64,000 bases of DNA from Alphaproteobacteria bacterium (lineage in GTDB: Bacteria > Pseudomonadota > Alphaproteobacteria > Micropepsales > Micropepsaceae): contig WGMH01000006.1 of assembly GCA_016125165.1 (NCBI GenBank), forward strand, positions 62,001-126,000, given 5' to 3'. Shown here one piece after another: positions 35,176 to 38,072 of the stretch (positions are counted from its first letter, which is position 1; the number at the start of each line of letters is the position of its first letter). The position numbers were made by a program, and so were the translations under genes. Below the pieces are notes generated by a model that was not told the origin of the DNA, searched no databases, and saw only the letters and a program-made list of their open reading frames with translations.

Positions 35176-35249
35176 TGGGGGATCGTCTAACGGTAGGACT
35201 GCAGACTCTGACTCTGCCTGTCTAGGTTCGAATCCTAGTCCCCCAGCCA
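35176..35249 (+). tRNA. tRNA-Gln (anticodon CTG)
   Basis: A 74-base cloverleaf with encoded CCA. Acceptor TGGGGGA pairs with TCCCCCA. The D arm is GTC...GAC; the anticodon stem GCAGA/TCTGC surrounds CTCTGAC, giving CTG (reads CAG). The T arm has GGTTCGAATCC, and the discriminator is G. The final A of CCA is also the first base of the 8-bp duplication made by the neighbouring insertion element, so the tRNA itself is intact. Confidence 0.96.
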
Positions 35250-35256
35250 GCATTCT
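35249..35256. repeat. Target-site duplication, left copy (AGCATTCT)
   Basis: Eight bases identical to 38065-38072, immediately outside the left inverted repeat. An 8-bp duplication is the known length for IS1595-family insertion. The first base is the 3' A of the tRNA-Gln CCA. Confidence 0.9.
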
Positions 35257-35279
35257 CGGTATTATGTAGGAAACGCACC
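35257..35279. repeat. Left terminal inverted repeat of the IS1595-family element
   Basis: 23 bases beginning CGGTATTATGTAGGAAAC. It is 22/23 identical to the complement of 38042-38064; the single difference is a C/T near position 18. Similarity stops abruptly at base 24. Confidence 0.92.
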
Positions 35280-35352
35280 TGCCCCAACCACTCCCCGAGA
35301 GGGTGAGTGAATGGGATATCTGGTACTTTGCCTTGTATCAGCGTGGCAGCTT

Positions 35353-36318
35353 TTAGGTGGCGGGATCGCCGGGGCTACCCTGTGTGGCAGCAAGATCATA
35401 GATCAGGTTGTCCGGCCATGGGGCGACTTTCATTATTCGTGTGCGCGGCCCCTCGAAGACAGCACGGAGACCGGCTTCTGGCAACACTTCGAAGAGCGTG
35501 AACTTGATCGACTGTGGTCTTTCAAAAACATCTTCCCAGAAGAGTTCACCACAAACGTAGCCTTGCGCATTCCCCATACGCAAAAGTTGCCAATATTCAT
35601 GCGACATCCCGCTTTGCTGCCAAAGAAGAGTGGCGAACTGCGGCGTGCCGGGCGAAATAACATCACAATAAAAATGAGATTCAGTCGAGACAGGAACATG
35701 TTGGGCGATGAGATTGCCATCGTCCCCATCAACGAGTCGGGTGCCAAATTGCTTGGCAACAACACGTATTTTGTTGGCCGGGGATTGTCCAAAGTTCCTG
35801 ATATTGATCTTGCAAGAGACCCAACCTCCAAGAACTTTGAACTCCCCATCTTCGCAGGCCAGATAGGCGCGGACCTGCTTTTCGCCGATATCGCGAGTGG
35901 TCTCGATGGCTTCGTCAGCGGAGCTGGCGGCCCTGCCAGCGGCCCACGCGGCCCATCCGGTGAAGCAAAGCGAAAGGACCAGCGCACCGAATTCCCAAGC
36001 AGTAATGCTGATCGAAAGGCGCGAGAGACGATTAGCCTCGGCCATTACTTTGGCGTTCTGCCATTGCGCGCACAAATCGGAATCAGCGCGATCTTGGGGG
36101 CGCTGACAATGGGGATCGTAGGCTTTGGGAGCTACCTCGGCTTTTTTCACCGCTTTTGGGAAGCTCGCGTGAGTGGCTGGCTGATAGTAGGCATCGGGAT
36201 TGGGATCGGCTTCGGAACGATACAATTCCTGATAGCCAATACTCCCTAGCGCCACGACCAGAGCGAGGAAGGCTAATCCGCAAGCCGCAATGATTGCACC
36301 CCAATAGCGTCTAGACAT
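35353..36318 (-). CDS. IS passenger: two-helix membrane protein, unknown function
   Basis: 321 residues. Helix 1 (IIAACGLAFLALVVALGSIGY) lies at the N-terminus. A polar loop with an HCQRPQDRADSDLCAQWQNAKVMAEA segment follows, then helix 2 (ITAWEFGALVLSLCFTGWAAWAAG). The remaining ~185 residues form a beta-rich domain (VRAYLACEDGEFKVLGGWVSCKINIRNFGQSPANKIRVVAKQFG) likely outside or under the membrane. Its start lies inside the end of the DUF6471 gene (46-base overlap), so the two form an operon. I know no function. A long plus-strand frame antisense to it is considered a shadow. Confidence 0.7.
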   Translation of the reverse strand: MSRRYWGAIIAACGLAFLALVVALGSIGYQELYRSEADPNPDAYYQPATHASFPKAVKKAEVAPKAYDPHCQRPQDRADSDLCAQWQNAKVMAEANRLSRLSISITAWEFGALVLSLCFTGWAAWAAGRAASSADEAIETTRDIGEKQVRAYLACEDGEFKVLGGWVSCKINIRNFGQSPANKIRVVAKQFGTRLVDGDDGNLIAQHVPVSTESHFYCDVISPGTPQFATLLWQQSGMSHEYWQLLRMGNAQGYVCGELFWEDVFERPQSIKFTLFEVLPEAGLRAVFEGPRTRIMKVAPWPDNLIYDLAATQGSPGDPAT

Positions 36319-36500
36319 TGCAGAAAGAAAGCCGCCGTGAATCCGCCCCGGCTGATCTTATTGGCTAGGTTGCGCTCTGTCTCATGCGTTCCAGCGGCTG
36401 CCAGCTTTTCGGCCAAGTCCCGATATCCCAGGTTTCGCCGTTTCAGCTCTGCCTTGAGCATTCCCTTTGCCTTTTCGGCCCATTCCAAGTCCTTGGCCAT
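36273..36500 (-). CDS. IS passenger: DUF6471 HTH-like protein
   Basis: 75 residues from ATG 36500, nine bases after GGAGA. LKAELKRRNLGYRDLAEKLAAAGTHETERNLANKISRGGFTAAFFLQCLDAIGVQSLRL fits DUF6471, a small lambda-repressor-like helix-turn-helix family frequently found in IS1595-type neighbourhoods. It is the best candidate to bind the CATCATAT motifs in the divergent region 36524-36609 and so control both the transposase and the passenger operon. The DNA-binding role is inferred. Confidence 0.8.
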   Translation of the reverse strand: MAKDLEWAEKAKGMLKAELKRRNLGYRDLAEKLAAAGTHETERNLANKISRGGFTAAFFLQCLDAIGVQSLRLAD

Positions 36501-36523
36501 ATTGAGGTTTCTCCAAATAAGAG

Positions 36524-36609
36524 GCAAAAATCATCATATTTGATGTTTTTGCCCTTGAAAAGGGTGATGTGAAACATCATATCAGGTGAGCAATACACCG
36601 GATATGATG
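36524..36609. promoter_or_regulatory. Divergent control region of the element with CATCATAT motifs
   Basis: Three near-identical 9-mers lie between the divergent DUF6471 and transposase genes: CATCATATT (36532-36540), CATCATATC (36575-36583) and the same 9-mer inverted (36601-36609), the last ending three bases before the transposase ATG. The first is part of an imperfect palindrome GCAAAAAtCATCA / TGATGTTTTTGC (36524-36552). A GATGT-GAA-ACATC hairpin covers 36566-36578. The arrangement suggests cooperative repressor binding. Confidence 0.6.
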
Positions 36610-36611
36610 AC

Positions 36612-37574
36612 ATGCCGCAGCACTTTCTCCTTTCCGCCAAGGCCCGGACCCTCAGTCTGGCCAAGGTGCTGCGCCTTTCCGATCAGGAAGCCCACGATGC
36701 CTTCAAGGCCATCCGGTTTTCGGAGAACGACGGCCAGCCCTTCTGCCCGAAGTGCGGGTGCGTGGCCGTCTATGAGTTCAAGAGCCGTCGCATCTTCAAG
36801 TGCAAGGCGTGCATGGCGCAGTTCTCGCTCACGTCCGGCACGATCTTCGCTAGTCGCAAACTGGCGATCCGCGACATTCTTGCGGCCATTGCGATCTTCA
36901 CGAATGGCGCGAAGGGCTACAGTGCGTTGCAGCTAAGCCGTGATCTGGACGTGCAGTACAAGACCGCGTTCGTGATGGCTCACAAGCTGCGTGAAGCCCT
37001 TGGCGCTGACGTACAGCGGCAAACGCTATCCGGCATTGTCGAGGTCGATGGTGCCTACTTCGGCGGCTACGTGAAGCCTGAGAACCGCAAGGAAGACCGG
37101 AAAGACCTTCGCCTGAAAGAGAACCAATCCGGCAAGCGCAAGGTCGTGGTCGTGATGCGGCAACGCGAAGGCAGCACCGTTCCCGCCGTCTTCAATTCCG
37201 AAGGCGACGCATGCGAGACCATTGTGGAGCGTGTCGAGGCTGGCAGCACGATCTATGCAGACGAAGGTTCGGGCTGGGATAGCCTGCACGGCACGTTCAA
37301 GGCGCATCGCGTCAATCACTCTGTCGCCTACATGGACGATGGCGTTTGCACAAACCAAGCGGAGAGCTTCTTTAGCCGCCTTCGCCGCGCGGAAATCGGA
37401 ACGCATCACCATATCAGCGGGCGCTATCTTCAAGGCTACGCGAACGAGATGGCATGGCGTGAGAATATGAGCCGCCAGTCAAACGGCGTGCAGTACAGCG
37501 CCATCGCCCACGCCGTGACGCATCACCCGGTTAGCCGTCAGTGGAAGGGCTATTGGGACCGCGCGGCGGCATAG
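36612..37574 (+). CDS. IS1595-family transposase
   Basis: 320 residues. An N-terminal zinc ribbon CPKCG...FKCKAC precedes a helix-turn-helix region and a DDE catalytic domain: first Asp in GIVEVDGAYFGG, second in TIYADEGSGWDSL, Glu in NQAESFFSRLRRAEIG. GTHHHISGRYLQGYANEMAWRENMS is characteristic of the family. The frame is complete without frameshift. The promoter region is shared with the passenger operon. The 3' end overlaps the convergent 154-residue gene by 44 bases. Confidence 0.96.
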   Translation: MPQHFLLSAKARTLSLAKVLRLSDQEAHDAFKAIRFSENDGQPFCPKCGCVAVYEFKSRRIFKCKACMAQFSLTSGTIFASRKLAIRDILAAIAIFTNGAKGYSALQLSRDLDVQYKTAFVMAHKLREALGADVQRQTLSGIVEVDGAYFGGYVKPENRKEDRKDLRLKENQSGKRKVVVVMRQREGSTVPAVFNSEGDACETIVERVEAGSTIYADEGSGWDSLHGTFKAHRVNHSVAYMDDGVCTNQAESFFSRLRRAEIGTHHHISGRYLQGYANEMAWRENMSRQSNGVQYSAIAHAVTHHPVSRQWKGYWDRAAA

Positions 37575-37995
37575 GTAACCGCCACACGCATACGCCGCGC
37601 CGCCGCTCCATGCCGTCCACAAGACCGCGCTTGGCTCTCACACGAAGGGTTTGCACGATGCGCAGCGCAATGGCCTGAGACAGCACCTTGTCGCCATAGT
37701 TTAGGCCCTTGGCCTTCATAAGCCGGGCCGTGAGTTGGCGGGTATCGAGCGGCCCTTCGGTCTCTAGCGTGGTCATACAGAACTTGGTGGTTTCGCCGCG
37801 CCGGAACACGCGGTTCAAGTCCACATAGGCCGGGAAGTCCGCAGGAGAACCGCTGGCCTCGAATAGCCGCAAGGTCGCGATGACATGGGCGAGGTCCGCT
37901 TGGGCCTCGCGTAGCTTGGCCTCATAGGCCGCTATCGTGTCCCTGATCTTGTCGCGCTTGGCCCGAAGCATCCGGACGGAATGAGGTATCGCCAT
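37531..37995 (-). CDS. IS passenger: coiled-coil/winged-helix-like protein, unknown
   Basis: 154 residues from ATG 37995 (ATG 38022 is possible). The first ~55 residues form a probable coiled coil (MLRAKRDKIRDTIAAYEAKLREAQADLAHVIATLRLFE). The rest, GETTKFCMTTLETEGPLDTRQLTARLMKAKGLNYGD...QTLRVRAKRGLVDGMERRRGVCVWRL, has the length and pattern of a winged helix. It starts 47 bases inside the right inverted repeat and converges on the transposase gene with a 44-base overlap, so antisense interplay is possible. I do not recognise a named family. Confidence 0.65.
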   Translation of the reverse strand: MAIPHSVRMLRAKRDKIRDTIAAYEAKLREAQADLAHVIATLRLFEASGSPADFPAYVDLNRVFRRGETTKFCMTTLETEGPLDTRQLTARLMKAKGLNYGDKVLSQAIALRIVQTLRVRAKRGLVDGMERRRGVCVWRLPMPPRGPNSPSTDG

Positions 37996-38041
37996 GCAGC
38001 GAAAATACCCCCGGACCCCCAAAGGAAGTCAGTCGGCCCTT

Positions 38042-38064
38042 GGTGCATTTCCTACATAATACCG
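38042..38064. repeat. Right terminal inverted repeat of the IS1595-family element
   Basis: 23 bases ending ATAATACCG, matching the left end in inverted orientation at 22 positions. It directly abuts the right copy of the 8-bp target duplication. Confidence 0.92.
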
Positions 38065-38072
38065 AGCATTCT
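38065..38072. repeat. Target-site duplication, right copy (AGCATTCT)
   Basis: Identical to 35249-35256 and immediately outside the right inverted repeat. It marks the resumption of ancestral host sequence. Confidence 0.9.

Follow-up and report, generated by a model that had tools for sequence, protein, structure and literature searches.

An IS1595-family cargo transposon with a putative DUF6471 repressor and operator beside a tRNA-Gln gene in a Micropepsaceae genome

Element structure and insertion site

The window is a 64,000-nt stretch of contig WGMH01000006.1 from a member of the Micropepsaceae (Alphaproteobacteria), and all coordinates are positions within it. A 2808-bp unit at 35257-38064 is a complete IS1595-family element that carries a transposase and three further genes inside its ends (Table 1). 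The inverted ends, the perfect 8-bp duplication, the intact DDE transposase and the three additional genes had all been listed in a first-pass annotation of the sequence, and each of them was recovered where it had been placed. The ends and the duplication are not a chance pairing, because about 50 related units with near-identical ends (CGGTATTATGTAGCAAACRCACC type) and 8-bp duplications were found.

The duplicated target AGCATTCT begins with the final base of the tRNA-Gln CCA end. A tRNA gene lies within 400 bp in only two of the 53 bounded elements, the window element (tRNA-Gln) and L102 (tRNA-Arg), and in both the tRNA 3' end falls inside the 8-bp duplication. Insertion at a tRNA 3' end may reflect a target preference or survival at a safe site, a sample of two being too small to distinguish them. 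The target duplications of the 53 elements show a weak symmetric consensus, roughly G-A-W-W-W-W-T-C, with which AGCATTCT agrees in the centre only.

Table 1. Coordinates of the element, its genes and its putative regulatory sites in the window.
Feature	Position	Strand	Remarks
tRNA-Gln (CTG)	35176..35249	+	Element inserted at tRNA 3' end; tRNA intact
Left copy of 8-bp target duplication AGCATTCT	35249..35256		From sequence
Left terminal inverted repeat (TIR)	35257..35279	+	22/23 match to right end
Cargo membrane protein, 321 aa, two predicted TM segments followed by an NxGxxPA-motif domain	35353..36318	-	Family of 21 elements
DUF6471 regulator, putative transposase repressor	36273..36500	-	PF20075, E 9e-32; same slot in 65/85 relatives
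Perfect palindrome CATCATATTTGATG over putative regulator -10	36532..36545		Weak support in relatives
Putative regulator promoter TTTTCA-N17-TATGAT	36561-36533	-	From sequence; -10 at 36538-36533
Putative tnp promoter TTGAAA-N17-CATATC	36555..36583	+	Comparable boxes seen by eye in relatives
Putative operator dyad CATCATATCAGGTG-N7-CACCGGATATGATG over tnp -10 and leader	36575..36609		13/14 arms; conserved in relatives
IS1595-family DDE transposase (tnp), N-terminal zinc ribbon, 320 aa	36612..37574	+	Pfam, NCBIfam
ORF4, predicted coiled coil and winged helix, putative transposition accessory protein	37531..37995	-	73/85 relatives; pLDDT 88
Right TIR	38042..38064	-	22/23 match to left end
Right copy of 8-bp target duplication AGCATTCT	38065..38072		Perfect match to left copy

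Transposase and family assignment

Members of the IS1595 family are described as having a DDE transposase, an 8-bp target duplication and usually a single transposase gene, with a zinc ribbon in all groups except IS1016 (PMC8101967). The transposase of the window element matched the catalytic domain DDE_Tnp_IS1595 (PF12762, E 9.6e-44) and Zn_ribbon_IS1595 (PF12760, E 6e-11, 42.5 bits against a cut-off of 25.4) in Pfam, as well as the NCBIfam model IS1595 (NF033547, E 6e-48, 163.5 bits against a cut-off of 75). The catalytic residues D146, D217 and E251, together with R258, were invariant in an alignment of 15 relatives. Zinc ribbon, DDE transposase and an 8-bp duplication flanking TIRs are thus common to the window element and ordinary IS1595 insertion sequences; these are described with one transposase gene, whereas three further genes and a putative operator lie within the ends here. 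A single gene is the usual and not the defining state of the family, and departure from it marks the transporter IS (tIS) variant. The tIS of this family, for example ISNha5, carry passengers that include transcription regulators according to PMC11891212 (citing Siguier 2009). The first-pass annotation took most IS1595-family members to carry only the transposase, but passengers in this family, with regulators among them in ISNha5, had already been reported (PMC11891212). The window element shares with ISNha5, which is compared here by description only, an IS1595-family transposase and passengers that include regulators. It also appears to carry genes not directly involved in transposition within IS ends, as a tIS does, judging by the free exchange of cargo on a fixed core that is described below. 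The window element is an IS1595-family cargo transposon of a passenger-bearing kind that is already known, with an anatomy that is clearer here.

Relatives and the conserved core

Related elements were gathered in two sets, one from a genome scan and family search (46-70% transposase identity) and the other from a scan of viral contigs (up to 73% identity to the window transposase). Across both scans 53 units were bounded by ends of the same type and exact 8-bp duplications; counts of core and cargo genes refer to 85 non-redundant loci. A small gene divergent from the transposase was present in 78 of these (DUF6471 in 65, an HTH_3 protein at the same slot in 13) and ORF4 in 73. Neither regulator type was seen in seven loci and ORF4 was absent from 12, in some cases because the contigs end. 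The core of transposase, regulator and ORF4 recurs among these 85 loci whatever the cargo, and therefore two of the three genes that had been called passengers belong to the core and only the membrane gene is true cargo.

Exchange of cargo on this core can be seen among close relatives: within the Bradyrhizobium elements L027, L028 and L030, and within the pair L050 and L051, the core is 78-86% identical at the DNA level and the cargo is unrelated. A quick tree of the transposases shows two changes of regulator type, in which an HTH_3 protein has taken over the slot, nine changes in the position of ORF4 and about 14 in the membrane cargo. One Methylobacter contig contains a related unit of 3243 bp twice without a mismatch (L048 and L049), the copies being flanked by different duplications, AATAAAAC and AAAAATTA; units with this architecture therefore move as a whole, together with their extra genes. 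All four genes of the window element were found within ends and a duplication at seven other loci (L045, L046, L098, L168, L187, L190 and L200), an outcome that the first-pass annotation had named as confirming its reading; in L168 and L200 ORF4 is short or weak, and in L046 and L190 it directly follows tnp.

Several relatives have a more complex structure. L036 contains three family-type ends (at 1061, 4169 and 8871) with one common duplication, AAGATATC, and a second pair of DUF6471 and ORF4 genes that points the other way, and is possibly a set of nested or tandem elements. A split ORF4 in L085, and two ORF4-like genes with a split transposase in L094, are signs of decay or fusion. Related transposons are also present in many contigs filed as viral in IMG/VR (L155-L200); judging by this label of the contigs, they may ride on prophages.

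Regulator and putative operator

Promoters for tnp and for the regulator can be read back to back in the intergenic region. The dyad over the putative tnp -10 recurs in DUF6471-type relatives, in most of them with its centre 17-26 bp upstream of the tnp start, and the arms keep their complementarity although their sequence varies from element to element. Fisher tests on this dyad gave p-values of 3e-17 (31 elements) and 2e-17 (34 elements), which are to be read as upper claims because related elements were treated as independent; a similar stretch inside the transposase gene gave p-values of 0.81 and 0.62 in the two sets. This null control, together with the changing arm sequence, argues against mere shared ancestry. 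The second palindrome, over the putative regulator -10, was weakly supported in relatives (p-values of 1.8e-4 and 3.3e-3). In HTH_3-type elements other palindromes (CAACG...CGTTG) stand in front of tnp.

A survey of 289 Alphaproteobacteria genomes returned 22 matches to DUF6471; 12 of the 13 near-full-length top matches adjoin an IS1595 transposase and the remaining matches are mostly partial or broken. Profile comparison gave no detectable homology between DUF6471 and HTH_3 regulators, and a sequence search of the PDB with DUF6471 returned no solved relative, only coiled-coil or chance matches. That DUF6471 binds DNA is a guess, made from the pattern of its sequence and from its context. Its best reading is as a transposase repressor, because the dyad overlaps the tnp -10 and start in DUF6471-type elements. 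The element had been likened in the first-pass annotation to a self-regulated module, which is right in outline.

ORF4

ORF4 matched no family, and a sequence search of the PDB returned coiled-coil or chance matches only. Its structure, modelled with good confidence (pLDDT 88), consists of a 40-residue helix and a winged helix. Among its best structural neighbours are winged-helix DNA-binding domains, but no neighbour is significant by E-value (2mh2, for example, has a TM-score of 0.75 by target length). In most loci the gene is found downstream of tnp and on the other strand, as a rule close inside the right end (63 loci); in seven elements it stands directly behind tnp, with a 4-bp overlap in L169, and in three it is at the left.

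Cargo genes

The start of the membrane gene overlaps the end of the DUF6471 gene by 46 bp on the same strand. Its family, which was joined by iterated HMM search, occurs in 21 of the 85 elements (the window and 20 others), always directly behind DUF6471, and eight aligned homologues are 19-24% identical to the window protein. In a class-wide sample eight of the nine assessable strong matches adjoin DUF6471. No PADLOC family matched the membrane protein at E 1e-3, a direct search of plasmids and viral contigs returned nothing and a sequence search of the PDB with the family gave only coiled-coil or chance matches. The structure model was too poor (pLDDT 49) for a fold search. A 312-aa antisense ORF, 35311-36249(+), lies opposite the membrane gene, and similar long antisense ORFs occur in relatives; it was rejected as a real gene, since the plus-strand ORFs of the relatives are dissimilar and the minus-strand ones are homologous.

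Dozens of relatives have the same layout, often with phage-defence or toxin-antitoxin genes in place of the membrane gene. The cargo includes PD-Lambda-5 A and B (L041), BstA (L045, L050), Panacea antitoxin-like genes (L034, L043, L052), RhuM (L050), Bro-N (L051), P63C (L033) and PDC-M53A (L084), and the tallies also hold Fic, MazF-like, restriction-modification, ShosA and dCTP-deaminase-like genes. With a cut-off of E 1e-10, the 50 cargo ORFs taken from the viral-contig set matched 40 PADLOC models, and the 76 flanking ORFs taken from the genome set matched four. This contrast is an indication and not a rate, because many models hit the same protein, the ORFs were picked mechanically and the two sets were drawn from different collections. 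By analogy with these elements, the best guess for the membrane protein is a function in defence or addiction.

Discussion

The preferred reading, to which a probability of roughly 0.7 is given, is an autonomous and self-limiting IS1595-family cargo transposon (tIS) made up of a transposase, a DUF6471 repressor, an accessory protein (ORF4) and modular membrane cargo. The DDE transposase would move the unit between its 23-bp ends and so generate the 8-bp duplication. DUF6471 would most likely be a small, dimeric repressor with the dyad across the -10 and the start of the transposase gene as its binding site, and it probably also binds the second palindrome, over its own -10; binding at both sites would thus damp transposition and set the expression of the regulator and the cargo. 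ORF4, with its predicted coiled coil and winged helix, most likely assists transposition as a DNA-binding accessory protein, and the membrane protein would be modular cargo in the operon of the regulator.

Each of these assignments has a competitor. The first-pass annotation described the membrane protein as having its own putative regulator, which the co-oriented and overlapping genes support, but a regulator that belongs to the transposon and sits on the tnp promoter is the better reading. Were DUF6471 instead the regulator or an antitoxin-like partner of the membrane gene, in a cargo operon to which the transposase is a mere neighbour, the 46-bp overlap and the place of the membrane family nearly always directly behind DUF6471 would be accounted for; this is improbable, since DUF6471 occurs in 65 of the 85 elements and the membrane family in only 21, HTH_3 proteins hold the slot in other elements and the conserved dyad sits on the transposase start. 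Control of the transposase and of the membrane gene could also be combined in DUF6471. The same fixed slot and translational overlap, and the rarity of the membrane family elsewhere, would suit a membrane protein that works for the transposon, for instance as a sensor setting repressor activity, and is neither beneficial to the host nor addictive. Its absence from 64 of the 85 relatives and its gain or loss about 14 times on the transposase tree make such a role rather unlikely. A somewhat stronger competitor, though still an unlikely one, makes ORF4 a passenger (for example a regulator of something else) with no part in transposition. Its usual position at the far end, convergent to the transposase, and the elements that seem to do without it speak for a passenger; its presence in 73 of the 85 elements regardless of other cargo, and its place directly behind the transposase in seven, one with a 4-bp overlap, favour the accessory role.

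The mobility of the window copy was weighed in the same way. Intact frames, ends and duplication fit the recent movement that the first-pass annotation proposed, but the element is present as one copy in its genome, the nearest relative of its transposase is 73% identical and no empty site was found. Homologues of the right-flank gene in 23 other genomes of the family are in no case beside tRNA-Gln, and the DNA that follows tRNA-Gln in relatives is unrelated. A recent move of the window copy is possible. The single copy and the lack of an empty site would also suit an old, fixed relic that is not mobile today, but this has little probability, as the frames, the two ends and the duplication have all stayed intact and the related unit of L048 and L049 is present twice without a mismatch.

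In transposons of the Tn3 type, with tnpA and tnpR, a dedicated regulator is transcribed divergently from the transposase and has its sites over the promoter of the latter. The likeness of the window element to these is one of logic only; their transposase and regulator are unrelated to those found here, and the window element has no resolvase. A literature search returned no paper naming DUF6471, and no link of IS1595 elements with anti-phage cargo or, beyond the mention of tIS, with a dedicated regulator. The class of small cargo transposon is known but little studied, and part of the anatomy of the window element may be on record already. A wider reading, tentative and at somewhat less than even odds, would place these elements in a widespread lineage of proteobacterial transposons, 3-7 kb in size, that has not been defined before. 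Its members would combine a dedicated repressor, either DUF6471 or HTH_3, with operators that covary and lie over the transposase start, an accessory protein of the winged-helix type and a slot in which phage-defence and toxin-antitoxin genes are interchangeable; on that view the membrane protein would count as a defence or addiction gene that has so far gone unrecognised.

Specialist interest attaches to the conserved slot for a repressor and its putative operator, to the putative accessory gene ORF4 and to the exchangeable cargo of defence-like genes. Testable roles are offered for two families annotated as unknown, namely repression of the transposase for DUF6471 and an accessory part in transposition for ORF4. 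Phage-defence or addiction cargo of one or two genes can also travel on small IS1595-type elements, including in contigs filed as viral. The cargo slot is a way to look for new defence genes, and the membrane family is the commonest candidate without an assignment here.
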